A stretch of 64,000 nt of DNA from a virus (IMGVR_UViG_3300011113_000123:1-64000), one strand, 5' to 3'. Shown: positions 10,052 to 25,160, counted from the stretch's first letter. The notes: generated by a model not told the origin, from the sequence alone. Translations and numbers: made by a program.

Positions 10052-10762
10052 ATGGCAAAGATTGCTAACGTTGCTCTTACCAACACATTCGATACGTGGA
10101 GAGTACGATCAAATGAAGCGTTTGATCGTCTAAGTCAGTTTGCTATTGACAACTCTAAGCTGTATGCTAACACGATTACAGCTAACGTTCGTTTCGTTTC
10201 TTCAGGAGCAACTAAGCTCGGAAGCAGTGGATCTACAAGAACTATCGTCAACGGGCTGCTGAGCGGCAACGGAAACATCAACGTTTCTGGTAATACAGTT
10301 CTTGGTGGTGCTAGTAAAACGCTAACTGTTGGTGGTGCTGGTGCGACTGCAAACGTTACTGGTTGGTTTGGTGTCAACGGCCGTGCGTCAGTTTCAACGA
10401 ATCTGGTCGTTGGGGGTAATACTACGCTCAATGGCACGACAATTGACAAGTCTAACGCGCTCAATCAAACTCTGACCGATGCAGCAACTATCAACTGGGA
10501 CACATCGCTTGGTCGTGTAGCCACAGTAACGCTTGGTGCATCTCGTACAATCGCCGCTCCTACTAATCAAAAGGTTGGTACATACATCCTTCGTGTTATT
10601 CAGGGTGGAACTGGCAGTTACACTTTGACTTGGAACGGTAACTATAAGTGGACTGCTCAATCTGCACCTGTTCTTTCTACAGCTGTCGGAGCAATGGATA
10701 TCTTTACGTTCTTCTCTGACGGTACAAAGATGTATGGATCTTATCTCCCAGACGTAAGGTAA
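10052..10762 (+). CDS. Tail fibre protein with shared C-terminal domain
   Basis: A 236-residue protein. The N-terminus (NTFDTWRVRSNEAFDRLSQF) is a short helical segment common at the start of T4-like marine phage fibre proteins. Then come Gly/Asn/Thr repeats of the GNTxL type. The last ~105 residues (NGTT, SNALxQTLTDAATI, then ASRT, APTN, GTYIL, VIQGGTGSY and a C-terminal YGSYLPDV) are clearly homologous to the C-terminus of the 605-residue fibre protein at 37689-39506. The shared module is probably a trimeric receptor-binding or tip domain. The family is inferred from sequence style. Confidence 0.65.
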   Translation: MAKIANVALTNTFDTWRVRSNEAFDRLSQFAIDNSKLYANTITANVRFVSSGATKLGSSGSTRTIVNGLLSGNGNINVSGNTVLGGASKTLTVGGAGATANVTGWFGVNGRASVSTNLVVGGNTTLNGTTIDKSNALNQTLTDAATINWDTSLGRVATVTLGASRTIAAPTNQKVGTYILRVIQGGTGSYTLTWNGNYKWTAQSAPVLSTAVGAMDIFTFFSDGTKMYGSYLPDVR

Positions 10763-10765
10763 GAA

Positions 10766-12292
10766 ATGTTTCTAGGATTCCTAGCAAGACCAACAAAAGT
10801 CGTTAATATCAGCAATGCTGCTAGTAACGTAAATCTCTACACTCAAGCGGGAAGTCCACCTTATCCGCTCAACTTGCTATGTTTTATCAACGCAGCCGTA
10901 TCATCTAACTCGCCCTCTACACCCGCGTTCGACGTAGGAACAGGATGGAGGGGTGGAACTTTCGTTTACGTTGATAACAACAATACGATCACTGGTCGAA
11001 TCGGAAATACAGGAAATCCAGGTAACACAGGTAATCCAGGAACTAATGCTCTACCTGGTGCACCAGGCAATCCAGGCAACACAGGAACTCCAGGCAACCC
11101 AGGATCAGCAGGGAATCCAGGAACAGCAGGCAATCCAGGCAATCCAGGAACAGCAGGTAATCCAGGTAACACAGGAACTCCAGGAAACAGCGGCGCTGGT
11201 GGAGCCGGTGCTGCTGGAAACACGACAGCCAACGGAAGTGCTGGCTCACCAGGAAACGCTGGTGGCCCAGGTGGAACTGGAAATAATGGCGGAACTGGTG
11301 GACCAGGGAATAACGGGGGAACAGGCAACTCTGGAATTCCAGGAAATCAAGGCGGTCCAGGTGGAACTGGTAATCCAGCTGGTGCAACTACTCCAGCGAA
11401 TCCAGGCGGACCAGGTAATGCTGGCGGCACAGGAGGAACAGGTGGAGCTGCGTTCGCTGTTCCTTCAGTGACTGGATTGATAACAGTTGTAGATAATGGC
11501 GGCGGTACATTCACTGGAGGAACTGGCGGTCCAGGCGGTCCAGGCGGTCCAGGAGGACCTGGTGGCGCTTTTGCTTTTGGTGCACCAGGCGGACCTGGGG
11601 GCCCAGGCGGTCCAGGAGGTCCTGGTGGCGCAGGCGGACCAGGTGGAGCCGGCGGACCAGGAGGCCCAGGTGGTGCGCGCGGACCTGGCGGACCTGGAGG
11701 TCCTGGTGGTTCTGGCGGCGGTGGCGGCGGTGGCTCAGCAGGAACGTATAGTGACGGTAAAGGCAGTAGCGATTCTGTTCGTCCTGGTGGCGGCGGTGGC
11801 GCAGGCGTACCAGGCGGCCCTGGAGGAGCTGGAGCCGGTGTTGGTGGAAACCCTGGCGCTGCAGGAACAGCTAATGCTGGTGGAGCTGGTGGCGTTCGAT
11901 CATTAGGTAATCCTGCTGAGCAGCGTTTTGGTGGCAATGGTGGAAACTTGGGTGCAGCGGGTAATCCTGGGCAAAACGCTGGTAATGGTGGTAGTGGGAG
12001 AACGCTTGGTGGTGGTGGTGGTGCTGCGGGCGCAACTGGACCAGCAGGAGCTCCAGGTAATGCGGGTGCTACTGGACCAGCAGGAACTCCAGGTAATGCG
12101 GGAACGCCTGGTTCTACAGGTCTTACAGGCGTTACAGGACCAACTGGACCTGGTGGTTTGTTTGCTCCAGCAGGATCGACAGGCCCAGCTGGCGCAACTG
12201 GTCCAACAGGATCACAAGGTAATGCTGTAACTGGCAACGCAAATATAACTAGATACATAGCAACAGGAACTAGAAACGGACCAATAGCATGA
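10766..12292 (+). CDS. Large collagen-like glycine-rich virion protein
   Basis: A 508-residue protein. The first ~70 residues are non-repetitive (head domain with [12 protein letters not shown]). From about residue 75 the chain is dominated by Gly-X-Y triplets ([28 protein letters not shown] types), interrupted by short Val/Ile-containing or poly-Gly segments, and it ends in a short non-collagenous tail. Asn and Ala are frequent in X/Y, with little Lys or Glu, unlike the second collagen-like gene at 34570. Phage collagen-like proteins are usually trimeric fibres on the virion. The stop overlaps the next start (ATGA). A long proline-rich frame on the other strand is only the mirror of the GGN/CCN codons. 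Confidence 0.7.
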
Positions 12293-12708
12293 ACCTATAT
12301 TACAAGATTGTTGAAGTTTGGCCTCAGGATCATCTTGTCGTTATCAGATACTGGACTGATGCGCTTTCAGAAGAGTTTCTAGCAAGCAATGATATTCGTA
12401 AGGAAGATGGAACACCAGAAAGATGTCGTTCTGACGTTTCTGTCACGCTTCCTATTCCAGCTCCAGAAGGCGAAGAGCTCGAAAAGCTATTAGTTTCCTA
12501 TGCTCCTCTTGGTTGGCTGAAGACTTTAGAAAGTGTGCATAATCCTGAAGTCGATACTAGTCTTACGCAAGTGCAATCATTGCTTGGTGTGGCTAAAGCA
12601 AAGCCATTGACGGAAGTTGAAGAAATAGTAAATCCTGGTGCATCAAGCCGTCAGCTGACTGATGAAGAAATTACAGCATTGATTAACAACGTCAAAACGA
12701 GCGAATGA
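12289..12708 (+). CDS. Unknown protein, possible fibre chaperone
   Basis: A 139-residue soluble protein that starts with [21 protein letters not shown] and ends in an acidic helical tail. It overlaps the collagen gene by four bases upstream and the first PP-loop gene by four bases downstream (ATGA at both junctions), so translation is likely coupled. Small proteins directly behind fibre genes are often tail-fibre assembly factors, but I see no diagnostic motif. Function unknown. Confidence 0.5.
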
Positions 12709-13724
12709 ACATATTTTACTATGACGACAGCTTCAACATTTACAGAAACCAGCTTGACGCCATAGCTTCCAAAAAGCATTGTTGGTTATATTTTCATGAC
12801 AAGGAGATGGCTCTAGTTGATTGGAAAACAGAGCCATCTCAAACATTAGAACAACTCTATAAAGCTCGTGCAGAGTATATCAGAGACAATAACAAGTACA
12901 TTATACTATGCTATTCAGGTGGGCACGATTCAACCAACATTCTAGAAACTTTTTACTATAACAACATTCATATCGATGAAATCCTTGTTGTGGGTGCATT
13001 GTCGCAAGACTCTCACGAAGGAAGCGACGAAAATCATAATGGAGAGTTGTATAAAAACGTTTTCCCTACACTGAACAAGCTCAATTTACCTAACACTAAG
13101 ATAACGATCGCTGACTATACAAAATGGTTCAACGATCCTAATAACTTTTCGACGATTCGCTTATATGGTAACGAGTGGACTAAACATGTGGGTGGATTCA
13201 AGAGCGTGCATACTTTGTTTTGGCGTGATCTTAAGAAATTCGTTGGTCACGAAAACTCAAAGCAAACAGCATACATCATGGGTACTGATAAAGTCTATCT
13301 TAAATATCAAGTCAACGAACCATCTTATGTTAGATTCACAGATCTTTCGTTCTTTGATTACGGGTCAAACTACGAAGATGAAAACTTCAAGCGCATAAAT
13401 TTCTATACGGATGCTCATTCGACAGCGACTGATATTACTCGAAAGCAAGCACATGTTGTTAATAGATATTACAAATCGGGGCTAAACTTAGCTTTGTCTC
13501 ATACCAACTTGATAAACAAACTTTTATACAGTCTGCGAAATCCGTTGGTCTATATGTCGCCTAAATCAATATACACTTCGATCAGCGCACGAGATATGTT
13601 CATGCTCAACGCAAAAAACTCTGAGATGTACAGTATGTTTGCTGAAGGTGTTAAGACTATATCTAAATATGCGTCAGTTAAAGAAAAGCATAGCTTTTGG
13701 ACTAAACCCTATTATATCGAATGA
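12705..13724 (+). CDS. PP-loop ATP pyrophosphatase family protein A
   Basis: A 339-residue protein. Residues 66-77 (IILCYSGGHDST) form a PP-loop, SGGxDS at 71-76, preceded by a beta strand and followed by a helix. This is the nucleotide-binding motif of N-type ATP pyrophosphatases (asparagine synthetase B C-domain, QueC, TilS, NAD synthetase). Such enzymes adenylate a carboxylate or carbonyl and release pyrophosphate. There is no glutaminase domain and no obvious zinc CxxC motif. It is the first of three different PP-loop genes within 5 kb and is coupled by ATGA overlaps to both neighbours. The substrate is unknown. Confidence 0.65.
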   Translation: MNIFYYDDSFNIYRNQLDAIASKKHCWLYFHDKEMALVDWKTEPSQTLEQLYKARAEYIRDNNKYIILCYSGGHDSTNILETFYYNNIHIDEILVVGALSQDSHEGSDENHNGELYKNVFPTLNKLNLPNTKITIADYTKWFNDPNNFSTIRLYGNEWTKHVGGFKSVHTLFWRDLKKFVGHENSKQTAYIMGTDKVYLKYQVNEPSYVRFTDLSFFDYGSNYEDENFKRINFYTDAHSTATDITRKQAHVVNRYYKSGLNLALSHTNLINKLLYSLRNPLVYMSPKSIYTSISARDMFMLNAKNSEMYSMFAEGVKTISKYASVKEKHSFWTKPYYIE

Positions 13725-14167
13725 GCTACATCCTAGTTTTCCTATTATGGACATTCGTCATATACTGGATGCACAGGCTCGCGCACGTGCTCCCGTACAT
13801 GCGCGCGTATCACAACGATCATCATAAGCAGGTTACTCAGCAAACTATAACTGGTCTTAACTGGAAGAACGCTTTCCTATGGTTCGATACATGGGAAAGT
13901 ACAGTAGATCAGTGGCTCACAGAAGTCATTCCTACATTCATCCTTTCTGCTGTCACTGGTCACTGGTGGTTGTTTGTTGCATACTATGTGTGGGCTGCGT
14001 TTATTCAGGAAGCTATTGAGCACAATCCAAGAATCAATCTGTATCCATTCATCACTAGCGGTAAGTGGCATCTAGTTCATCACAAAGATCCTACTAAAAA
14101 CTACGGCGTGTTCATCCCAATCTGGGATGTGTTATTCGGAACGAAGTCTGATGGCTACAAAAGATAA
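13721..14167 (+). CDS. Fatty-acid hydroxylase/sterol desaturase-like membrane protein
   Basis: A 148-residue integral membrane protein. One membrane segment lies at residues 2-20 and one or two at 66-95. Histidine clusters match the di-iron hydroxylase superfamily: HRLAH (18-22), HNDHH (31-35), EH (100-101) and HLVHH (117-121). Members use a di-iron centre to hydroxylate or desaturate lipids or carotenoids in the membrane. It is shorter than most family members (usually over 200 residues) but keeps all the His boxes. It overlaps the preceding PP-loop gene by four bases and the next by 17 bases. The substrate is unknown. Confidence 0.7.
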   Translation: MSYILVFLLWTFVIYWMHRLAHVLPYMRAYHNDHHKQVTQQTITGLNWKNAFLWFDTWESTVDQWLTEVIPTFILSAVTGHWWLFVAYYVWAAFIQEAIEHNPRINLYPFITSGKWHLVHHKDPTKNYGVFIPIWDVLFGTKSDGYKR

Positions 14168-14909
14168 CTGGCTTGTGACTAACATAAAGACGAGGCTTAC
14201 TGATCCAACTATAGATTTTAAAGTAGGTCATAGGGTCGAGAGACTTGAGCGATTGTCTTGGGAACAAGCCCTGCTCAATACGATTACAGATTTTGAGCAG
14301 ATATCTAAGAAGCTGTATATTCCACTAAGCGGTGGGATGGATTCAGAGTTTGTGTTTAATTGTCTTAGACATCTTAATCCAACTCCTATCATAGTAGACA
14401 CCCCAGCTAATAAACTAGAATCTGCTTATGCATTTCACTATTGTAGGAAACATAATCTAACGCCTGTTGTTCTAGAACGATCTGAGTATGATTTGCTTCG
14501 CGTCTATATTGAAGATATCTTTACGAAGATAAATGGTGTAGGAGCTAGCTCAGTCGCATCATTATTGGCAGCCAAGTACGCTGAACAAAATGAAGGCGTT
14601 GTTGTAATAGGTGAGCACGCATACGACGGTGTCAGTGAATGGGATTTCTATAATGATGCGCTGATTCATGAACTCAACAGCGCATACTTCTTTATGTGGA
14701 CTCCTGAATTGGTTGATGCTATGCAACGAGAATATCGTGGCGAAGATCATCAAGAGTTTAAGCATAGATTGTATGAGATTCCCTACAGACCTAAGATGAT
14801 CTATCAATACAGCGATGCGTTTGAAAATGTGCTGCGGAATTTGAACGAAGCTAGAAAATCAAGACCAAACACGAAAAGCGAAATCACATTTAATGTAGGA
14901 AACGATTAA
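14151..14909 (+). CDS. PP-loop ATP pyrophosphatase family protein B
   Basis: A 252-residue protein. ATG 14151 is chosen over ATG 14127 because GGAACGAAG lies upstream and the overlap with the hydroxylase gene is smaller. The PP-loop SGGMDS is at 60-65, inside KLYIPLSGGMDSEFVFNCL, followed by a Rossmann-like strand (PIIVDTPANK). The arrangement resembles the synthetase domain of asparagine synthetases without the amidotransferase half. It is not a close copy of the PP-loop proteins at 12705 or 15857. The stop overlaps the next ATG (TAATG). The reaction is unknown; ATP-dependent adenylation is inferred from the motif. Confidence 0.65.
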   Translation: MATKDNWLVTNIKTRLTDPTIDFKVGHRVERLERLSWEQALLNTITDFEQISKKLYIPLSGGMDSEFVFNCLRHLNPTPIIVDTPANKLESAYAFHYCRKHNLTPVVLERSEYDLLRVYIEDIFTKINGVGASSVASLLAAKYAEQNEGVVVIGEHAYDGVSEWDFYNDALIHELNSAYFFMWTPELVDAMQREYRGEDHQEFKHRLYEIPYRPKMIYQYSDAFENVLRNLNEARKSRPNTKSEITFNVGND

Positions 14910-15826
14910 TGAAGTTTATACTTTTATCATTGTTGCTGATGATAGTCAATCCTGCGTTGGCTAAAGAAACAGTAACCGTATATTCTAAGTTCAATCTTAC
15001 AGATGTTGGATCACGACAGATCGATGCGTTCGTAGATATGTTGAATCAGAATAGCAATAAGTACGAGTTCAGAATAAGATCATTGCCTGGCGCATTTGGC
15101 GAAGCATCAGTTCGTCGATCTATAGTGGATGCTAGATCAGGCGTCAAGGTTCTATTGTTCAATACGGTTGATATCGTAACGGTGCTCAAAGAGTTAGAAA
15201 ATAAGGACCCCGATTTTGTTTATGATAAAAGCGTTGATCTAATACCATTACAGGGCATTTCGTCGACGTTTCATGGATTGTTTGCGCGCCCTGAAATTGG
15301 TGACATAGATTCACTGATCGTTCAGCTCAGAAAAGAGCCGCAGTTTTTCTATGGATATACGTCAAACGCAGTAGTACCAAAGTTGTCTGCGGATTCATTT
15401 ATCAAGCATCACAAGTTGACTAACGGTAAGCTCGTTCTATACAAAAGTCAATCTGATCTTGAGCTAGCTGTTCTGAACGGAGAAATTAGGTTTGCTGTTG
15501 GGAGCGTGACACAAGCTATCAGCGATAACAATCTTAAGCTGTTGTTGAGTACAAGTAAATCTAGGAGCCAGTTCTATCCAGAAACTCCAACGGGTATCGA
15601 AAAGGGTGTACTGAACTTTAAATATAACGCGCAAACAGTTTTGTTTATTCCTAAAGAGCTTGCTGCATTTGGGCAAGAAATGTCTGCAACCCTGAAATCC
15701 GTATGCGACAGTCGTGAATATGGTAAGATACTGACTTCGCTCAGAAGAACCCAAAGCTGTTTGACTAGCGATCAGCTGAAAGAATTTATCGAAGAAGAGT
15801 ATGGTTGGTATCTAGCTAATAAATAG
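14909..15826 (+). CDS. Exported solute-binding-like protein, distant Bug/TctC type
   Basis: A 305-residue protein with a signal peptide (residues 1-18, ending NPALA before KETV). The mature part alternates strands and helices in a periplasmic-binding pattern. A Pro-Gly-x-x-Gly turn (PGAFGEASVRRS) followed by a region about phage-time values ending in residues like FIPKEL is reminiscent of Bug/TctC receptors. The resemblance is weaker than for 18314-19303. If correct, it would bind a small carboxylate in the periplasm. No transporter membrane subunits are present in the window, so it may act as a scavenger or decoy. Two cysteines near the C-terminus (CDS, SCL) could form a disulfide. Confidence 0.45.
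   Translation: MKFILLSLLLMIVNPALAKETVTVYSKFNLTDVGSRQIDAFVDMLNQNSNKYEFRIRSLPGAFGEASVRRSIVDARSGVKVLLFNTVDIVTVLKELENKDPDFVYDKSVDLIPLQGISSTFHGLFARPEIGDIDSLIVQLRKEPQFFYGYTSNAVVPKLSADSFIKHHKLTNGKLVLYKSQSDLELAVLNGEIRFAVGSVTQAISDNNLKLLLSTSKSRSQFYPETPTGIEKGVLNFKYNAQTVLFIPKELAAFGQEMSATLKSVCDSREYGKILTSLRRTQSCLTSDQLKEFIEEEYGWYLANK
15818..15825 (+). promoter_or_regulatory. Variant late promoter AATAAATA
   Basis: AATAAATA, one change from TATAAATA, ends 31 bases before the ATG at 15857. It overlaps the last codons of the preceding gene. The same variant occurs before 44025. Confidence 0.45.
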
Positions 15827-15856
15827 CAAACGTTACACCGACAACGAGGAAGTAGT

Positions 15857-17020
15857 ATGCCACTAGGATCAAAAGCCATTATGTACAATGTTACTTTCCG
15901 TAACATTATGACTAGATCTAGATGTCAAGGATATAAAAATGTTCTTGATCTTCTTATGGAAGTATGCAGAACTAGAGCCGATGGTGGCGTTATCGCTGAT
16001 CGAACTGGCACGTTTCAGGGTATGATTAAGACTGAAACGGAAACGATTCCTTCAATTCCAAACAATTTCACTAAGACCTTTGAGGATATATGTAACGAAC
16101 GAGCAGCTGAGCTCATCGCGACAAACAAAGAACTGATTGTCACGTGGTCTGGTGGCATCGACTCTACAGGCGTTTTGGTTTCACTGATCAAAGCTGCTGG
16201 TGCTAATACTGACCAGATCAAAGTTAAGTTTGAGCGTCGTTCTATTGACGAGAATCCAGACTTCTATAACAATCACATCAAAGACAAGCTGAACCATGAA
16301 ATCTTTACAGAATACTTTCCTACAAGATGTCTTCCGAGTTCTAATCAGCTTGTGATTGGTGGTGATAATACTGCACAGATCTTTGGTATGTCAAAGACAT
16401 CTTTCATGGATAATCGTTTCGATCCGTGGCAGCCATATGTTCGAAGCAAACTTTCCGATTTTGAATATAACATCTTTATGGAACAGGCGCCACTGCAATA
16501 TGCAAACGCGCCATTCCCAATTGAAACGATTTTTGATTTGCATTGGTGGACTGCGTTCAGTATGAGATGGAGCAATCCACAGATTCGTATGTGGAGAGTA
16601 TCTAACGACTACAACGAAGAGATGTTCAGAAACACGATACCATTCTATGGATCTCAAGATTTTCAGATCTGGAGTCTACTGAATCATGATAAGAAGGTTG
16701 GTAATGACCCAACATCATACAAGTCTGTTATTAAGGACATCATCTACGATTATGACGGCAACGATAATTATTATGATAATAAAGTTTCAGTAACTTCTGG
16801 AGCTGCGACTTCATCGGAAGATGCAGCATTCAATAACGCTGAAACGTATTCTGCAAGAATCATGAATAACGAGTTGCCAATTCTCGTAGACAATAACTTC
16901 AATCGCTACTATCGTAGCGATGTTGTTTCTAATCTGAATATGTTCGATCCTATTCTAGGCATCTTTAATGAGAGCGGAACGTTTAGCCCCGACTCTGAAT
17001 GGTATAAAGAACCAGAATAA
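15857..17020 (+). CDS. PP-loop ATP pyrophosphatase family protein C
   Basis: A 387-residue protein with GAGG 6-7 bases before the start. The PP-loop SGGIDS is at residues 98-103 (LIVTWSGGIDSTGVLVSLI). A second conserved-looking region (QLVIGGDNTAQIFGMSKTSF) follows at about 168-187, where N-type pyrophosphatases place substrate residues. The remaining ~190 residues are aromatic-rich and unusual. It is the longest of the three PP-loop proteins and has its own putative late promoter and ribosome site. Its stop lies five bases from the end of a convergent minus-strand gene. The substrate is unknown. Confidence 0.65.
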   Translation: MPLGSKAIMYNVTFRNIMTRSRCQGYKNVLDLLMEVCRTRADGGVIADRTGTFQGMIKTETETIPSIPNNFTKTFEDICNERAAELIATNKELIVTWSGGIDSTGVLVSLIKAAGANTDQIKVKFERRSIDENPDFYNNHIKDKLNHEIFTEYFPTRCLPSSNQLVIGGDNTAQIFGMSKTSFMDNRFDPWQPYVRSKLSDFEYNIFMEQAPLQYANAPFPIETIFDLHWWTAFSMRWSNPQIRMWRVSNDYNEEMFRNTIPFYGSQDFQIWSLLNHDKKVGNDPTSYKSVIKDIIYDYDGNDNYYDNKVSVTSGAATSSEDAAFNNAETYSARIMNNELPILVDNNFNRYYRSDVVSNLNMFDPILGIFNESGTFSPDSEWYKEPE

Positions 17021-17025
17021 TATGA

Positions 17026-17637
17026 TTAGATGAACTTGGGTCCAAGGCACCATACAACCAATGACTTACGATTACCTTTAGTTACTGGCGTCACACGATG
17101 AATCATAAAGGACGGGAAAAGAACAGCCCGTCCTTTATGCATTGGGACTATCAGCGGTGTTTCTTCCTTACCGTTATTGATTTGAAACTCACCACCCTCA
17201 AAATCATCGTTGAGCGCGAGCGAAAGTGACAGCTTACGCGGCTCTGCATCGTTACCAAACTTTTCACCAAACGTCATATCTGTGTGCCAGTCGTATCGAC
17301 CATTCGAGTCGTAGGTTGTATACTGGAACGAATCATAACCATTCAGGTGAAAGTTATAGAACTGTTCGTTTGCAGCCTGAATGATAAAGTTCAGCTTATC
17401 AAAAATCCACGCCGTATTTTCGTTTCTTTCATGAAACTTGACGTTCGACACGCGATGCTTCTCGATGTCTTCTTTTGATTGAGCACCAAACGTAACACCT
17501 TGCTCTGTACCAGATGAATCGCAATAATCAACAATAGCCTTGAGTTCTTCATCAGTAAACGCGCCGTCCCAAGTCACATAAGGGAACGTGATCTGCGAAC
17601 GCTGCCAGGGATTATTGTATATTGTCGTGTATGTCAA
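17026..17637 (-). CDS. 2OG-Fe(II) oxygenase, PKHD/prolyl-hydroxylase type
   Basis: A 203-residue soluble enzyme. The iron ligands are visible as H118 and D120 (in RYDWHTDMTFG) and H180 (in FPSFMIHRV). R190 in NRKSLVVW is the expected 2-oxoglutarate ligand, and GGEF precedes the distal strand. This is the layout of the 2OG-Fe(II) oxygenase superfamily, which couples 2-oxoglutarate decarboxylation to hydroxylation of protein or small-molecule targets. Such genes are frequent in T4-like cyanophages. It is the last gene of the minus-strand operon and overlaps 17634-18317 by four bases. Confidence 0.8.
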   Translation of the reverse strand: MTYTTIYNNPWQRSQITFPYVTWDGAFTDEELKAIVDYCDSSGTEQGVTFGAQSKEDIEKHRVSNVKFHERNENTAWIFDKLNFIIQAANEQFYNFHLNGYDSFQYTTYDSNGRYDWHTDMTFGEKFGNDAEPRKLSLSLALNDDFEGGEFQINNGKEETPLIVPMHKGRAVLFPSFMIHRVTPVTKGNRKSLVVWCLGPKFI

Positions 17638-18317
17638 AACTGTCTCCAGTTGCTTACAGGTTGAATACCAAGCGGGCTTGCTGTTTTATTTTTGTATGTG
17701 AGAACGACGTCTGCCGCAAGACATATACGATTTTCGTTTAGTTCTGCGAATGTAGGATTGCCTTTATCCTCACCATTCGTTTGACCAATCGTATCGTGTG
17801 GGAGCGTAGAAGGAAACACTAGCAGCTGCCCCTCGACTGGCTCAAACTGCCATGTGTATGCGTTGAACCAATCCCACGTATCGTTTTTATTATTCCATCT
17901 GATTGAGCCTGGATATGGCTCATGACGACGTTCATAGTTGAAGAAACGGATTGGGCGAACGAACGTCGTCGGAACATTTACGTAGTAAGTGAACGACACG
18001 TGTGCGTCCCCATGCGCGTGATACGGCGTTGAGTCGTCCTTCTTGATATTCATCCACGTCTTCACGAGATTGAACTCAAACTTATCCGTGTCGATGTGTA
18101 GTCGCCTTACGTATTGCTTCACGCAGTCGATAGCGAACGTGAAGAACGGATTGAACGACTCTTCATGATGGATATTGACGTGACCAGTGAACTCGTTAGA
18201 GTAACCTTCTGGCGTCATGTAGTTGAAGATCTTCTGATAAAATAGATCTTTGAACTGATCTTTCTTATCGTAATGGAACTCGCATACTAGGGTAGGGAAT
18301 AGAGCATGTTCAATCAT
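17634..18317 (-). CDS. Putative 2OG-Fe(II) oxygenase, second type
   Basis: A 227-residue protein. PYHAHGDAHVSFTYYVNVP at 98-116 supplies an H-x-D pair (H102, D104). EGQLLVFPSTLPHDT supplies H174, and the late Arg of NRICLAADV (R197) fits the co-substrate site. This order matches the PF13759-like oxygenase group (His-rich motif, then aromatic strand, then FPS-x-L-x-H). It is not a duplicate of the neighbouring oxygenase. It overlaps both neighbours by four bases, so three minus-strand genes appear translationally coupled. The target is unknown. Confidence 0.65.
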   Translation of the reverse strand: MIEHALFPTLVCEFHYDKKDQFKDLFYQKIFNYMTPEGYSNEFTGHVNIHHEESFNPFFTFAIDCVKQYVRRLHIDTDKFEFNLVKTWMNIKKDDSTPYHAHGDAHVSFTYYVNVPTTFVRPIRFFNYERRHEPYPGSIRWNNKNDTWDWFNAYTWQFEPVEGQLLVFPSTLPHDTIGQTNGEDKGNPTFAELNENRICLAADVVLTYKNKTASPLGIQPVSNWRQF

Positions 18318-19303
18318 TTTTCACTCTGTAGCGATCTGAGTTTATTTAATACTGATGCTGATGCGTTCGCAGAAGTAGCTATGATTTGCTCGGCTTGTTC
18401 GCCTGTGATGAGCTGAACTTCCATCCTTGATTTAGTCGCTTCTGCTATGTATGCTGGATCATTTACCGCTTTATTGAATGCTTCGCGTAACTCGCGAACT
18501 CTGGCTGCTGGAACGCCTGGAGGAGCGATGAATGGTCTCAGTAGAATGAACTGCGTTTCGAAGATATCGAGGATAGCAAGATCTTCTTCGTTCGTAATTA
18601 GCTCAGCGAATGTAGGTACATCCTTGAAGTCTGGATGGCGAATCTTAGCGTTACCAAATTGCATCAGCGCGCGGATGCCGCTGTTAGATTCTGTCCACTG
18701 TGTCTGTGTTCTGATTCCTAATAGATTGAAGATAACTGCATCAACTTCTTTGCGTTCCAGAGCTAGTCGAGCTGCACCTGGGTTAGCGTATCCCGCAATC
18801 TGTCTGAAGTTGAGCCCTAACGAGTTTCGAATGAACTTCGTCGAGTCAGCCGATACGATACTCTCAGTGCCGACGATCAGTTCTTTTGTCTTAAACTCGC
18901 TCAGAGATTCTGTCCTGTGGGTCCATACAATGACTGCATCTTTACGCCCATCAACGGTAGACCCTAGCCAGTTGAACTTGGTAGGGTCAAACATAATCGT
19001 AGGACCACCCAAGATACCTACGAGCGGAATGTTCTTATACACTGTAGCAATCGTTCCGCCGTCGCGTGGGGCTACGTTATACATGTAATTTGTAGCGACC
19101 AAGCTAGACGCTCCAGGCATAACTTGAATGACTGGAGAAGGTTTTTCGGGAAGATATTTGGCTATGTGTGGGGCTATGATTCTAGCATTGATGTTATAGC
19201 TATCTGCAGGCGAAGGGGTAATAATACGCAGTTCTTGCGCCATCGCACTCGCAGATAGCGCCAAAAACAAAACTAATGATCTAATCATATTATTATATAG
19301 CAT
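18314..19303 (-). CDS. Tripartite tricarboxylate transporter-type binding protein (Bug/TctC family)
   Basis: A 329-residue protein with a signal peptide (LVLFLALSASAMA before QELRI). Typical Bug features are present: a PGASSLVATNYMYNVAPRDGGTIATV block near the N-terminus, GYANPGAARLALERKEVDAV mid-protein and PPGVPAARVRELREAFNKA near the C-terminus. Bug proteins capture carboxylates in the periplasm for TctAB transporters and are abundant in alpha- and betaproteobacteria. An alternative start at 19288 (MIRSL) would give a tighter signal peptide; neither start has an ideally spaced ribosome site. It is the first gene of the minus-strand operon. Very unusual cargo for a T4-like phage. Confidence 0.8.
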   Translation of the reverse strand: MLYNNMIRSLVLFLALSASAMAQELRIITPSPADSYNINARIIAPHIAKYLPEKPSPVIQVMPGASSLVATNYMYNVAPRDGGTIATVYKNIPLVGILGGPTIMFDPTKFNWLGSTVDGRKDAVIVWTHRTESLSEFKTKELIVGTESIVSADSTKFIRNSLGLNFRQIAGYANPGAARLALERKEVDAVIFNLLGIRTQTQWTESNSGIRALMQFGNAKIRHPDFKDVPTFAELITNEEDLAILDIFETQFILLRPFIAPPGVPAARVRELREAFNKAVNDPAYIAEATKSRMEVQLITGEQAEQIIATSANASASVLNKLRSLQSEK

Positions 19304-19618: not shown

Positions 19619-19917
19619 TGACTGGCGAAATCGTTAACCTGATTAATAAGTATGGCTTCCCTATCGTGGCTGCTGGCGGAATGGGTTATTTGATTTTCTA
19701 TGTGTGGAAATGGGCCACGCAAGAAATCAAACCAGTTCTGTCAGAAGCAAATACAGTTCTGATCGCATTGATTGATCGTATTCGTATGTTGGATAACGAT
19801 CTTATTCGCCTTAATCAAAAGGTTAATGTCGTATTAACATTACGACAGAAACAAATCGAGGAGATGAAAGATGCTCAGACTAACGACGATAGCGGTGCTG
19901 ATAAGCCTAAGCAATAG
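19618..19917 (+). CDS. Small membrane protein, holin-like, copy 2
   Basis: A 99-residue paralogue of 19340-19618. It has a membrane segment at about 12-34 (YGFPIVAAGGMGYLIFYVWKW), then a coiled-coil-like helix (ALIDRIRMLDNDLIRLNQKV) and an acidic tail. The start ATG overlaps the previous stop (TAATG). The last 47 bases overlap csgF in another frame. Being first in the curli-like operon, the pair could be lysis proteins or inner-membrane partners of the secretion apparatus. Function inferred. Confidence 0.5.
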   Translation: MTGEIVNLINKYGFPIVAAGGMGYLIFYVWKWATQEIKPVLSEANTVLIALIDRIRMLDNDLIRLNQKVNVVLTLRQKQIEEMKDAQTNDDSGADKPKQ

Positions 19918-20314
19918 TTCGTTCGCTTCTGAATTGCAATTTGGCTTTAAGAGTCCTGCGTTTAACGGCGTAGGATACTCTGCTCACGTTCTAACCATTG
20001 AGAATCTCGAACACACGCGTCGTCAGAAGATCTTTGACGATGCGAAAGCTGCTGCGGCTAAAGAAGCAGCAGATGCTAAGAATACGAACTTAGCTAAGTT
20101 TCTAAACAACTTGGAAAGTCGTATCTATGCTACGTTATCACAGAAGATAGCAGAAGAGCTTTTCAAGGATGGTGGGAACACGACAGGCACGTTTGATGTG
20201 GCGGGTAATAACATCTATTGGTCCAGCACTGGGTCAACGATTACGCTACGCATCACAGATCCTGCGGGTAAGGTAACGGAAATAGAAGTTCCATACGGGA
20301 GCTTGGCATGGTAA
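19871..20314 (+). CDS. csgF: Curli assembly factor CsgF
   Basis: A 147-residue exported protein. The signal peptide ends SSFA before SELQFGFKSPAFNG. The mature N-terminus (LQFGFKSPAFNG) matches the conserved CsgF beginning (an xFxFxNPxFGG-type sequence) that inserts into the CsgG pore. It is followed by a helical region ending in a stretch like FLNNLESRIYATLSQKI and a C-terminal strand repeat with TLRITDPAGKVTEIEVP, as in CsgF. CsgF caps the outer-membrane channel and helps nucleate curli. GAGGAG precedes the start, and the end overlaps csgG by seven bases, which supports joint function. Confidence 0.85.
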   Translation: MLRLTTIAVLISLSNSSFASELQFGFKSPAFNGVGYSAHVLTIENLEHTRRQKIFDDAKAAAAKEAADAKNTNLAKFLNNLESRIYATLSQKIAEELFKDGGNTTGTFDVAGNNIYWSSTGSTITLRITDPAGKVTEIEVPYGSLAW

Positions 20315-21114
20315 AAGCACTAAGTGTAATTGTAGCAAGTTTGTTGTTAGCTTCTTGCGCGACTCAAGAAAATACGAAAGATCGCATCGAAGCGATGTCC
20401 GAACCTGCGGAAATCATTACACGCAAACGTTCCAACGAGCTGATGAACTTACCGCCGCTCGATGGTCCAAAGATTCCGATTGCTGTGTATCGTTTTCCAG
20501 ACATGACAGGACAACGTAAGCCAGCTACGAACTTTGCAAGTTTAAGTTCTGCTGTCACGCAGGGAGCGGAAGTGTTTCTGTTCAAGGCGCTTCATGATGC
20601 AGGAAGAGGGCAGTGGTTCCAAGTCGTAGAACGTTCTGCTCTAGAAAACTTAGTTAAGGAACGACAACTGATTCGCTCGCAGCGTGAGCTGTATGAAAAG
20701 GATCAAGCCAAGCCACTGACGCCACTTATCGTGGCAGGTATCATGCTAGATGGTGGAGTCGTTGGATATGATTCTAATATAGGAACTGGAGGTATTGGCG
20801 CTCGACTACTGGGCGTTGGTGCTACACAAGAATACCGTAAGGATGAAGTCACTGTTGTATTGCGCTTGATTTCCGTAAACACAGGCGAAGTTCTGCTATC
20901 AACTGGCGCATCCAAAACGGTTTTGAGTACGGGAGCAGGGGCTAACGTATTTAAATTCATTGATGTCGGAACTAAATCCGTAGAATTTGAAGCTGGATCG
21001 ACAATCAATGAGCCAACAACTTACGCTGTACGAATCGCAATCGAGGCAGCGGTGGCCGATATGGTAAAAGAGGGAGCTAAGAAAAAGCTCTGGAGCTACA
21101 AGAAAACGAGGTAA
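20308..21114 (+). CDS. csgG: Curli secretion channel lipoprotein CsgG
   Basis: A 268-residue protein. A lipoprotein signal ends at LLLASC with the lipidation Cys at residue 17. The mature chain follows CsgG closely: IPIAVYRFPDMTGQRKPATN, a QGAE-x-x-LFKAL helix, WFQVVERSALENLVKERQLI, then AGIMLDGGVVGYDSN, GGIGARLLGVGATQEYRKDEV, VSVNTGEVL-type strands and SKTVLS. Size and order match the family (about 260-280 residues). In bacteria nine copies form a 36-strand outer-membrane pore that exports curlin. It overlaps csgF and is followed by a curlin-repeat gene. No csgE is seen nearby. Confidence 0.92.
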   Translation: MVKALSVIVASLLLASCATQENTKDRIEAMSEPAEIITRKRSNELMNLPPLDGPKIPIAVYRFPDMTGQRKPATNFASLSSAVTQGAEVFLFKALHDAGRGQWFQVVERSALENLVKERQLIRSQRELYEKDQAKPLTPLIVAGIMLDGGVVGYDSNIGTGGIGARLLGVGATQEYRKDEVTVVLRLISVNTGEVLLSTGASKTVLSTGAGANVFKFIDVGTKSVEFEAGSTINEPTTYAVRIAIEAAVADMVKEGAKKKLWSYKKTR

Positions 21115-21120
21115 CAACCA

Positions 21121-21798
21121 ATGAGAATTCCGAGTCTGACATTCTTGTCATTCTTGGTCATGGTTGGAAATGCAAACGCTCAACCCAATACTGTGTATGT
21201 GGAGCAAATAGGTTCAGGATCAACGATTAACTTTACACAAACGGGAACAGGTAACGCGATTGGAAATTCAACAGCGAAAGCTGTTGTGAATGGCAACAAC
21301 AATACGATCACTGTAGAACAGATAGGAAATACCAACGTCGCTGCTCTCAATGCAGTCGGCGCTGGTATGAACATATCTTCTATCACTAACGGAAACGGAA
21401 ACTCTGTTTCTATCGACTGTGGATCATCTGGCGATTGTACTGGATCAACGATCTCGAACACAATCACTGGTAACGGTAACTCATTAACCACAAACTCCGA
21501 CAACTTGATTGATTCTACTGTGACTATCAACTCTGATAATAACACGGTAACGATCGACAACACGTCAACAGCGGTGAGCGGTGCTAAGTCTAAGATTGAC
21601 ATTAGCGGTGGTAACGGTAACACAGTCGCGCTCACGCAAGCGGGAGCAGCTGGAACTAACGGACACGACGCTGAGGTTAATATCTCAGGTGCTACCAACA
21701 ATGTTCTAGTAAAGCAAGGTGGAAACAATGATTCCATGGTCAACGCTACAATCATTGGTTCTGGTAACACTCTGTCTATTAAGTCCAACTTACAGTAA
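21121..21798 (+). CDS. Curlin-repeat amyloid-like protein (CsgA/CsgB type)
   Basis: A 225-residue protein with a signal peptide (ending NANA before QPN). The mature part is built of Asn/Gly-rich strands with curlin-like units of the form N-x-x-x-V-x-Q-x-G-x-x-N: NTVYVEQIGSG, NNTITVEQIGNTN, NTVALTQAG and NNVLVKQGGNN. The intervening region (GNGNSLTTNSDN and similar) is a looser Asn/Ser/Thr ladder. One Cys pair lies in DCGSSGDC. Directly behind csgG, this is the expected exported subunit. It could be a curli-like fibre or a beta-solenoid adhesin. The next gene starts inside its 3' end in another frame. Confidence 0.75.
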   Translation: MRIPSLTFLSFLVMVGNANAQPNTVYVEQIGSGSTINFTQTGTGNAIGNSTAKAVVNGNNNTITVEQIGNTNVAALNAVGAGMNISSITNGNGNSVSIDCGSSGDCTGSTISNTITGNGNSLTTNSDNLIDSTVTINSDNNTVTIDNTSTAVSGAKSKIDISGGNGNTVALTQAGAAGTNGHDAEVNISGATNNVLVKQGGNNDSMVNATIIGSGNTLSIKSNLQ

Positions 21799-22828
21799 TG
21801 CTTCTGTAGGTACGGTAACAGAACAGACAGGACCGACCGAAATAAAACGTCAGACGAATGTGATTCTCAGCGCCAGGGATACTGGCGTTGAGATGCAAGA
21901 TGTTATTACGACTGCGAACGCGAAAGCGAACATCACATTCAAAGACGACACCAAGGTACAAATCACAGAACATTCTAGGCTTGTTATCGACAACTTCGTC
22001 TACGACGATAGTAAGAAAACTGGTAGGCTCGGAATGAAAATGGCGTTGGGTACTATCAAGTATGCCAGTGGTCAGATAGCGAAAGCTAATCCTCAACAAG
22101 TAACAATCGAAACTCCTACTGCGACCATCGGCGTTCGTGGTACGGACTTTTCTGGGACCGTAGATGAGATTGGGCGTTCGACTATCATTCTCCTTCCTTC
22201 ATGCCCAGTCGGATGGAGAAACATTCAGCGTGATTGTGTGGTAGGATCTATTACGGTTACAACGGATATGGGAACCGTGGTACTCACTCGTGCGTTTGAA
22301 GCGGTGAACGTACAAACGCGAATGGCCCAACCCAAATCGTCGATACTGAATCTTTCGCTGGATCAAATTAATAATCTAATCATCGTAAGTCCGCCAGCCT
22401 CTGTGCGAACAGAAACGGCTGCTGTTCGCACAAGAAACTTACTCGACGATGACCTTTTAGGTAAAGATTTTCTAAAGTACGATGAGCTCGACAAGAATCA
22501 GCTCGACGAGTATCGAAAACTAGATGAAAACTTTTTGGATAAAGACTATCTCTATAACTTTCTAGACGTAGCTGGTACGCAACTATTGACTAACGAGCTC
22601 GCTGAGTTCAATGCAATGTTACCTAAATATGACGCAAGGAGTGGGCTAAAGTATTTCGTAGAAAACGATGCAGTCACATTGTATCGTGAAACTGTGAATG
22701 CGTTCGCCAGCGTTACTGTGCCAATGTATGATAGCATGACTTTGCGATTGAGTCAAGAAGGCTTGGAAATCAAACAAATCGTTAACTCAGCCGGAACAAC
22801 AACGATCACTATTAGACAGAGTAACTAA
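21728..22828 (+). CDS. Exported FecR-domain protein
   Basis: A 366-residue protein. I chose ATG 21728 rather than the GTG at 21719 because it opens a clean signal peptide (MIPWSTLQSLVLVTLCLLSP, cleavage near YSNA). Residues 25-160 form a FecR domain (PF04773 type): GTVTEQTGPTEIKR, DVITTANAKANITFKDDT, ITEHSRLVIDNF and the hallmark TPTATIGVRGTDF. The remainder is acidic and helical with a repeated L-D-x-x-x-LD pattern (DELDKNQLDEYRKLDE). Unlike classical FecR it is exported and lacks an N-terminal anti-sigma region. Its first 71 bases overlap the curlin gene. FecR proteins often sit beside CHASE2 cyclases, as here. Confidence 0.8.
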   Translation: MIPWSTLQSLVLVTLCLLSPTYSNASVGTVTEQTGPTEIKRQTNVILSARDTGVEMQDVITTANAKANITFKDDTKVQITEHSRLVIDNFVYDDSKKTGRLGMKMALGTIKYASGQIAKANPQQVTIETPTATIGVRGTDFSGTVDEIGRSTIILLPSCPVGWRNIQRDCVVGSITVTTDMGTVVLTRAFEAVNVQTRMAQPKSSILNLSLDQINNLIIVSPPASVRTETAAVRTRNLLDDDLLGKDFLKYDELDKNQLDEYRKLDENFLDKDYLYNFLDVAGTQLLTNELAEFNAMLPKYDARSGLKYFVENDAVTLYRETVNAFASVTVPMYDSMTLRLSQEGLEIKQIVNSAGTTTITIRQSN

Positions 22829-23096: not shown

Positions 23097-25160
23097 ATGG
23101 AAAAAATTGGTCAATACCTAACAAGCACATGGTCAGCTGTTATCTCAGCGATAATCCTGCTGGGCGTATATGTGTGGAATCCCAGCGCCGTTGAGATACT
23201 AAGGCTGAAGACGTTCGACTATCTCATATCGACGTTACAGCCTAAAGAGTCAGAAGAAATCATCATCGTCGAGTTTGGTGAAAAGTCCGTAGAGCGATTT
23301 GGTCAGTGGCCATTCGATAGACGCGATATCGCTAAAACTGTTCAAGCCCTTCGTGAGAACGATGCTGGCGTTATTGTTGTTCCCATCCTTATGTCCGAGA
23401 AGGACAGAGCTGGTGGTGACGCAAAGTTAATTGAAACGATCAAAGATAATGGAGTAGTCCTTGCTCAAACCCCTACTAATCAAAACACTAAGCCTGATGC
23501 AGTACGCCGCGGAGTCGCTGCTATCGGTCCTACTGATCCTCGCAGCTATACTTTTCGCTGGAACGGTGGATTACGCCCTCTGGATGAGTTGGCAGGGTCT
23601 GCTCAAGGGGTCGGGGTTCTCGCTTCTGTCCCCGAAGTCGATGGTGTTGTTCGTCGTCTCCCTCTACTTGTTACTATTGCAGGCAATCTGTATCCATCTC
23701 TACCTATTGAAGCGATTAGAGTTTGGTCCGATGATAAAAGCTATCAAGTCAAAACTAGCGAAGCGGGAATAGAGTTCGTACGCATTCCAGCAGTTCCACC
23801 TATCGCTACAGACGAGCGCGGTAGAGTATGGCTATCATGGAATAACAAGTTTACTAGAATCGACGCAACAGAAATAGATCAGAGAGTTCAAGGAAAGCTA
23901 GTCATCCTTGGCGTCTCGATTGAAGGTGTCGGCGGGATTATCGGCACCCCAGCGGGCGAAAAGTGGAGTCATGAAGTTCAAGCATCTGCGTTGCAAACTT
24001 TGATAGATGGATCGTCGATAACACGAGTGTCTTTTGCGACGATAGTCGAGCTGCTCGTTCTATCTGGTATGCTAGGATTATTGCTTGTTCTTGTGCCAAG
24101 AACGTCTGTTTTATGGACTGCGCCATTATATCTAGCATTTATTGGGATCTCCGCATATGGTTCGTACTACATGTTCAAAGAACATATGCAGCTCTGGGAT
24201 GCCAGTTATTTATTGTTAGCAGGCACAGCGAGCTTTGGTCACTTAGTATATAACAACTTCGCTCGCGAGAACAGACTGAAACTACAAATCAAAAAGCAGT
24301 TCGGAACGTATCTGTCACCAGCGATGGTCGAAAAGCTGCAACAGAATCCTGACCTACTCAAGTTAGGTGGAGAGACTCGCGAGCTTTCAATTATGTTCAC
24401 TGACGTTCGCGGCTTCACTGCTATCAGCGAGCATTACGGAAGCGACGTTCAGGGATTGACGCGCATCATGAATCGTTATATGACAGCGATGACTCAAAAG
24501 ATCCTTGAGAATAACGGAACGTTGGATAAGTACATTGGCGATGCGCAGATGGCATTTTGGAACGCACCCCTAGACGATCGCGATCACGCTAAGAACGCAG
24601 TCAAAACTGCATTGGAGATGTTAGATGACTTGGATAGATTCAATAATGAGATCTCTGTGGAAGGAGTTCCCCCGTTTGGTATGGGTCTCGGTATTAACTC
24701 TGGTTCTGTGGTCGTTGGTAACATGGGCAGCTCTCAGCGTTTTGATTATACATGCCTTGGTGACTCTGTAAATCTAGCTTCACGTCTCGAAGGTCAGTCT
24801 AAGCCCTATCACGTCAAGATGATCATTGGCGAACGTACCGCTGAGCTTCTGAACGGCGACTATCCGCTCGCAGAGCTAGATTGCATCGCGGTCAAAGGTA
24901 AAACTAAAGGCGTCAAGATATACACGATCGTTCCAGGAACAGGCATACAGCGCGAGCATCTCAAGAATCACAACAAGTTCATAAAGGCTTATCGATATCA
25001 GGACTGGGAGAACGCTCTATTCTATTTGAAGATTCTTAGAGGCGCGTTCAACAAAGAACTCGACGAGTACTATGCTATGATGGAGGAGCGTATCGCAGAA
25101 CTACGCGTCGCTGATTTGCCTAAAGATTGGGATGGCGTATACAGGGCTACATCGAAATGA
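23097..25160 (+). CDS. CHASE2-domain class III adenylate cyclase
   Basis: A 687-residue inner-membrane protein. An N-terminal membrane helix (about 11-28) is followed by an extracytoplasmic CHASE2 domain (about 35-305, with FGQWPFDRRDIAKTV and GGIIGTPAGEKWSHEVQASAL), three membrane helices (about 310-385) and a cytoplasmic class III cyclase domain (about 400-610). Catalytic residues are intact: metal ligands D436 (FTDVRGFT) and D482 (YIGDA), adenine-site K478 and T552, and N559 and R563 (VNLASRLE). The K/T pair favours ATP, so the product should be cAMP. CHASE2 senses an unknown periplasmic signal. It is the last gene before the late promoter of gp13. Confidence 0.9.
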   Translation: MEKIGQYLTSTWSAVISAIILLGVYVWNPSAVEILRLKTFDYLISTLQPKESEEIIIVEFGEKSVERFGQWPFDRRDIAKTVQALRENDAGVIVVPILMSEKDRAGGDAKLIETIKDNGVVLAQTPTNQNTKPDAVRRGVAAIGPTDPRSYTFRWNGGLRPLDELAGSAQGVGVLASVPEVDGVVRRLPLLVTIAGNLYPSLPIEAIRVWSDDKSYQVKTSEAGIEFVRIPAVPPIATDERGRVWLSWNNKFTRIDATEIDQRVQGKLVILGVSIEGVGGIIGTPAGEKWSHEVQASALQTLIDGSSITRVSFATIVELLVLSGMLGLLLVLVPRTSVLWTAPLYLAFIGISAYGSYYMFKEHMQLWDASYLLLAGTASFGHLVYNNFARENRLKLQIKKQFGTYLSPAMVEKLQQNPDLLKLGGETRELSIMFTDVRGFTAISEHYGSDVQGLTRIMNRYMTAMTQKILENNGTLDKYIGDAQMAFWNAPLDDRDHAKNAVKTALEMLDDLDRFNNEISVEGVPPFGMGLGINSGSVVVGNMGSSQRFDYTCLGDSVNLASRLEGQSKPYHVKMIIGERTAELLNGDYPLAELDCIAVKGKTKGVKIYTIVPGTGIQREHLKNHNKFIKAYRYQDWENALFYLKILRGAFNKELDEYYAMMEERIAELRVADLPKDWDGVYRATSK

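Follow-up and report, generated by a model that had tools for sequence, protein, structure and literature searches.

The stretch analysed here (the window) covers positions 1-64000 of a virus record, 157,580 bp long, that belongs to a T4-like phage. Three PP-loop genes (products P1, P2 and P3) lie in it among genes for fibre-type proteins, a membrane hydroxylase, oxygenases and solute receptors. Their coordinates in the window, strands and supporting matches are as follows:

10052..10762, + strand: tail-fibre-type gene tf236, left edge of the cassette; kept in 26 loci, no Pfam match
10766..12292, + strand: collagen-like Gly-rich fibre or adhesin; PF01391 at 2e-7, kept in 16 loci
12289..12708, + strand: small conserved protein directly before PPa; no Pfam match
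12705..13724, + strand: P1 (PPa), PP-loop protein with a predicted asparagine-synthetase-type fold and no glutaminase domain; alignment A1, AF2 model, VIA
13721..14167, + strand: membrane di-iron enzyme of the fatty-acid-hydroxylase superfamily; PF04116 at 6e-17, His boxes conserved (alignment A8)
14151..14909, + strand: P2 (PPb), PP-loop protein of a second family; alignment A2, TtuA/NadE profile matches at 2e-5
14909..15826, + strand: TctC1, TctC-type periplasmic carboxylate receptor; PF03401 at 1.4e-6, above cut-off, with a hydrophobic N-terminal signal
15857..17020, + strand: P3 (PP3), PP-loop protein of a third family with a predicted beta-lactam/asparagine-synthetase-type fold; alignments A4/A7, AF2, VIA
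17026..17637, - strand: 2OG61, 2OG-Fe(II) oxygenase; PF13640, phrog_61
17634..18317, - strand: 2OG81, 2OG-Fe(II) oxygenase; PF13759, phrog_81
18314..19303, - strand: TctC2, second TctC-type periplasmic receptor; PF03401 at 5e-10, kept in 24 loci

From 12289 to 15826, each gene start overlaps or abuts the end of the preceding gene, as in a single translation-coupled unit. P1 consists of 339 aa with the motif CYSGGHDS and P3 of 387 aa with the motif WSGGIDS. For P2 (PLSGGMDS), the first ATG is at 14127 (260 aa), and the start conserved across its relatives is at 14151 (252 aa). Small proteins of the type encoded at 12289..12708 stand immediately upstream of 32 PPa/c members; the idea that they are small carrier proteins was rejected, as those before PPa and PPc have no evident conserved C-terminal attachment residue.

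The earlier note had placed three distinct PP-loop genes at 12705, 14151 and 15857, and this was confirmed by the open reading frames, the family alignments, the predicted folds of P1 and P3 and the profile of P2. Within SGGxDS, the residues S, G, G, D and S are invariant in the alignments of P1 (A1, 33 members) and P2 (A2, 30 members), and the motif is nearly invariant in that of P3 (A7, 37 members). The note was also right that the three proteins are not copies of each other: BLASTP aligned only a 36-residue motif region of P1 and P3 (E 7e-5) and found nothing significant between P2 and either of them. Profile comparisons revealed a remote kinship (PP3 to P1 at 3e-9, PPa/c to P3 at 1e-7 and PPb to P1 at 1e-7). 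As judged by sequence, the three thus represent different families of one superfamily, with recent copying excluded, and P1 forms a single family with the longer PPc proteins of related phages (hhalign probability 100, E 1e-52). Searches of Pfam, PHROGs and NCBIfam with P1, P2 and P3 gave weak motif-level matches only, and tblastn with P1, P2, a PPc and a distant PPa against 50,697 phage records gave no match. In scans of an 84,980-species genome set, which rely on short conserved patterns, no relative was detected with the P1 profile and a single one with the P2 profile (22%, on a Bdellovibrionaceae contig). A fourth PP-loop gene (PF00733, 2e-14) was found beyond the window at 68321-69130 of the record (L050:4321-5130), shortly downstream of a family-B DNA polymerase gene.

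The earlier note had proposed structure-based comparison of the proteins. Run on the AF2 models of P1 (pLDDT 93) and P3 (pLDDT 84), it pointed to enzymes of the asparagine/beta-lactam-synthetase type rather than of the TilS type. The best VIA-align match of the P1 model was human ASNS (Z 11.5, rmsd 6.3, 272 aligned); the rmsd is high, and function does not follow from a common fold. Beta-lactam synthetase came next (10.7), ahead of carbapenam synthetase (9.4) and the hydroxyamidotransferase TsnB9 (8.7), and TilS, LarE and NadE had Z values of 7.8 or lower. For P3, the best match was beta-lactam synthetase 1mc1 (Z 14.1, rmsd 4.5, 232 aligned), with ASNS and TsnB9 both at 13.4, GMPS at 9.7 and LarE at 9.0. 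QueC was absent among the 50 matches listed for the P1 model and likewise among those for the P3 model. The predicted models of P1 and P3 thus resemble the asparagine/beta-lactam/carbapenam synthetase domain more than they do TilS or LarE. P2 is classed by its profile as a PP-loop enzyme: it matches TtuA and NAD synthetases (NadE) about equally (2e-5) in a PDB profile search, and 14 of the 30 members of its family match PF00733 (Asn_synthase) weakly, at best at 1e-4.

None of the three proteins passed the curated PF00733 cut-off (P2, 14.7 bits against 21; P1 and P3, no match) and little beyond the P-loop region was aligned in a profile comparison with E. coli AsnB; therefore, the synthetase class rests on the predicted folds. 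The cut-off of PF06508 (QueC) was missed as well (P3, 11.5 bits against 22). By Pfam, no amidotransferase/glutaminase (GATase II) domain is present in P1, P2 or P3, and neither GATase_7 nor a class-I GATase was found in the whole 157.6-kb record, so that the nitrogen donor would be free ammonia, an amine, hydroxylamine or a host-supplied source. The best reading of the P1 and P3 models is that of glutaminase-less synthetases of the asparagine/beta-lactam-synthetase type, and P2 is probably of the same type.

The product of the gene at 13721 scored 62.7 bits with PF04116, against a cut-off of 31, and nine histidines (H18, H22, H31, H34, H35, H101, H117, H120 and H121) are invariant in its family (alignment A8). 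A PF04116, Rieske or FA-desaturase protein is encoded within two genes of 59 of the 79 PPb genes; a Rieske protein replaces the hydroxylase beside PPb in L132-L134 and in several of the contigs L153-L163. As the catch of the PP-loop query itself should not be counted, viral contigs were searched with the hydroxylase family alone. This reciprocal test yielded 40 new contigs, 36 of which have a PP-loop gene within 3 kb of the hydroxylase gene, directly adjacent in 18; after clustering at 70% hydroxylase identity, a nearby PP-loop gene was present in 14 of 15 clusters. With an unrelated gene of the same phage, Tet_JBP, as the control anchor, 0 of 36 loci, all of a single lineage, had a PP-loop gene nearby. 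The hydroxylase occurs in the same gene order and without a nearby PP-loop gene in L198, L200 and L205; its neighbours in L198 are an acyl carrier protein, a thioesterase and a TauD-type oxygenase. In L225, it accompanies two desaturase-family proteins and a relative of P2.

Relatives of P1 are encoded in 40 viral loci, those of P2 in 71 and those of P3 in 43, and many of the P2- and P3-relative loci have surroundings other than the T4-like cassette. All contigs come from metagenomes and share ancestry, so that they do not count as independent, and the genes were clustered automatically. The cassette itself was found in about 35 contigs, between tail-fibre and neck genes. Its recurring order is tail fibre, collagen-like fibre, small protein, PPa, PF04116 hydroxylase, PPb, optional genes, PPc and TctC1, followed by 2OG61, 2OG81 and TctC2 on the opposite strand and then by neck or curli-type genes. 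PPc is a relative of PPa, and in the window P3 occupies its usual place; PPa, PPb, PPc and a P3 relative are all present in contig L035. The third ligase place is thus taken by PPc, by PP3 or apparently by Amidoligase_2, which from gene order seems to stand there in L023, L027 and L028. Among the 27 loci with both edges visible, three PP-loop genes were counted in 16, four in 4 and one or two in 6; the zero count in the remaining locus is an artefact of edge placement. PPa is alone in a complete interval in L007/L008 and stands by itself at a different place of the genome in L017-L019. Partners occurring in single loci include radical SAM, carbamoyltransferase, PurT-like ATP-grasp, AMP-binding and PTPS proteins. 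A radical SAM gene of the same family as the cassette-borne one of L020, L033 and L040 is located outside the cassette at 107529-109097 of the record (L052:3529-5097), with another 2OG oxygenase gene one gene later.

Both putative receptors passed the PF03401 cut-off of 27 (28.5 bits for the gene at 14909 and 39.7 bits for that at 18314). TctC or TctA genes adjoin 42 of 53 PPc genes; L029, L048 and L121 each have a duplicated PPc-TctC pair, and a second, inverted pair is present in L012/L013. Of 44 contigs with relatives of P3, 23 have a TctC, DctP or TctA gene at that locus. Phage-encoded TRAP-type DctP receptors are next to or near P3 relatives in L064, L082, L089, L090 and L092. The number of TctC genes did not significantly track that of PPc genes (rho 0.31, p 0.12). 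No match to TctC2 was detected in the 50,697 phage records, and a single-protein query with TctC1 returned no viral relative. The two receptors are encoded on opposite strands and fall into separate clusters at a stricter setting. On a counter-reading, the receptor genes could serve nutrient uptake independently and have just the insertion region in common with the other genes.

The PP-loop SGGxDS motif and the synthetase fold are common to P1, P3 and a set of known enzymes (ASNS B, beta-lactam synthetase, carbapenam synthetase and TsnB9), from which P1-P3 differ in having no glutaminase, in falling below the PF00733 cut-off and in showing little similarity outside the P-loop. Several proteins of uncultured Caudovirales, annotated as 'Asparagine synthase' or uncharacterized, match P3 over most of its length by fold, and one (A0A6J5LA19) is 58% identical to P1; unlike the cassette genes described here, these are annotated singly. 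Two tandem 'MnmA' genes near baseplate genes of Pseudomonas phage Cygsa01 are also distant relatives of P3 (23% for the one detected by tblastn); the annotated neighbours include no hydroxylase and no receptor, and the MnmA label is the depositor's, whereas the predicted fold of P3 points elsewhere. In the open-access literature searched, 'asparagine synthase' is mentioned in general terms as an auxiliary gene of viruses, and no published description of the cassette or of the hydroxylase link was found.

We interpret the island as the core of a phage tailoring cassette in which glutaminase-less acyl-adenylating synthetases act together with oxygenases, and assign to this a probability of roughly 0.55. 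As the same genes are found again next to tail-fibre genes in dozens of uncultured viruses, the cassette probably makes or modifies some molecule. The computed part comprises the three genes, the fold predictions for P1 and P3, the absence of two glutaminase families and the hydroxylase linkage; to this we add, by inference, an amide-forming chemistry, a role for the receptors and a single shared pathway. Each synthetase would adenylate a carboxylate with ATP, and the resulting acyl-adenylate would be attacked by a nitrogen nucleophile (ammonia, an amine or hydroxylamine) to give an amide, lactam or hydroxamate. The same substrate would be oxidised by the membrane di-iron hydroxylase, or by the Rieske oxygenase in other phages, and probably by the 2OG-Fe oxygenases as well. 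The TctC-type receptors may import the carboxylate precursor via a host permease; some relatives carry TctA. The product could be a small metabolite or an acyl derivative, or else a cell-surface or virion glycan that has been amidated; the desaturase and acyl-carrier contexts favour the acyl reading.

The earlier note had proposed a new biosynthetic or modification pathway. Such a pathway is the best reading in view of the recurrent cassette and of the pairing in 36 of 40 contigs; that it is new is our presumption. The suggestion that all three enzymes adenylate one substrate in sequence is unsupported in its obligatory form, because the number of PP-loop genes in related phages ranges from one to four. 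We propose more tentatively, and would not be surprised to be wrong, that these genes represent an undescribed and widespread class of viral cassettes, producing an oxidised amide-containing molecule with their own synthetases and oxygenases from a precursor imported through their own periplasmic receptors. Small-molecule biosynthesis is generally considered rare in lytic phages. Two to four amide-synthetase-type enzymes, with oxygenases and receptors, are kept across dozens of uncultured phages, and in the pattern-dependent scans of the cellular genome set the P1 family was not found and that of P2 was nearly absent; such a set would point to a compound that the virus makes or modifies and that has a role in infection.

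Amidation of uronic acids has been ascribed to AsnB-like proteins encoded in O-antigen clusters, and the cassette might similarly produce uronamides in a glycan carried by the host surface, the virion or the phage DNA. PPb genes do occur with UDP-glucose dehydrogenase, epimerase, cytidylyltransferase or glycosyltransferase-like genes (L212, L155, L158 and L162), and an NTP-transferase, a DAHP/KDO-8P-synthase-type gene and a cupin are encoded elsewhere in the record, beyond the window. However, no sugar gene was recognised inside the cassette of the T4-like contigs, and lipid-type hydroxylases and desaturases are unusual in such pathways; we consider uronamide formation rather unlikely. A direct role in modifying the neighbouring tail fibres, with the PP-loop enzymes and 2OG oxygenases acting on the collagen-like fibre (e.g. 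by amidation or prolyl hydroxylation), is suggested by the position of the cassette directly after that fibre and its small neighbour, with overlapping starts, and by the assignment of 2OG61 to PF13640, a group to which prolyl hydroxylases belong. It has a low probability: the hydroxylase, P2 and P3 families are present in many phages with other surroundings, PPa stands alone at another place in L017-L019, and neither a membrane hydroxylase nor periplasmic receptors would be expected for such a role.

Variation in the number and order of the genes, and the occurrence of PPa without the others in L007/L008 and L017-L019, would be expected if unrelated accessory genes for nutrient uptake, asparagine supply and oxygenases had gathered in one insertion hotspot. 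Against this, the PP-loop/hydroxylase pairing persists in different surroundings (36/40 contigs, 14/15 clusters), a Rieske protein replaces the hydroxylase next to PPb and PPc-TctC is duplicated as a unit, which makes a mere hotspot unlikely. Little probability is also left for modification of DNA or tRNA bases (7-deazaguanine or hypermodified pyrimidines). Phage 7-deazaguanine (dpd/QueC) pathways use a PP-loop enzyme on a carboxylate, but their PTPS and FolE partners are missing here and P3 is under the PF06508 cut-off. The earlier note had seen no QueD, which holds for the whole 157.6-kb record; with neither PTPS (PF01242) nor FolE (PF01227) found in this possibly incomplete record, the 7-deazaguanine route is unlikely for this phage. 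PTPS (QueD-type) genes follow PPb in four other contigs (L153, L154, L155 and L165), and base or pterin chemistry may therefore operate there. A Tet_JBP oxygenase gene elsewhere in the record would also agree with base modification; yet Tet_JBP was found in only 5 of 30 related records and the predicted P1 and P3 folds are farther from TilS and LarE than from asparagine synthetase. The 149-168-kb cassette contigs L013, L029 and L135 yielded no Tet_JBP, and a coupling of the cassette to Tet_JBP DNA modification was dropped for that reason.

In the record, the Tet_JBP oxygenase gene is followed by one for a fused NTP-transferase/APH-type protein (116545-119532; L052), a pair that suggests a modification of DNA bases or of sugars independent of the cassette. 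Curli-type genes for CsgF (PF10614), CsgG (PF03783), a curlin-repeat protein and a FecR-domain protein are located in the window at 19871-22828 and are present in 7 to 10 related loci. Shortly after the FecR-domain gene, a protein with CHASE2 and adenylate/guanylate-cyclase domains (PF05226, PF00211) is encoded at 23097-25160 of the window; it occurs in 7 loci.
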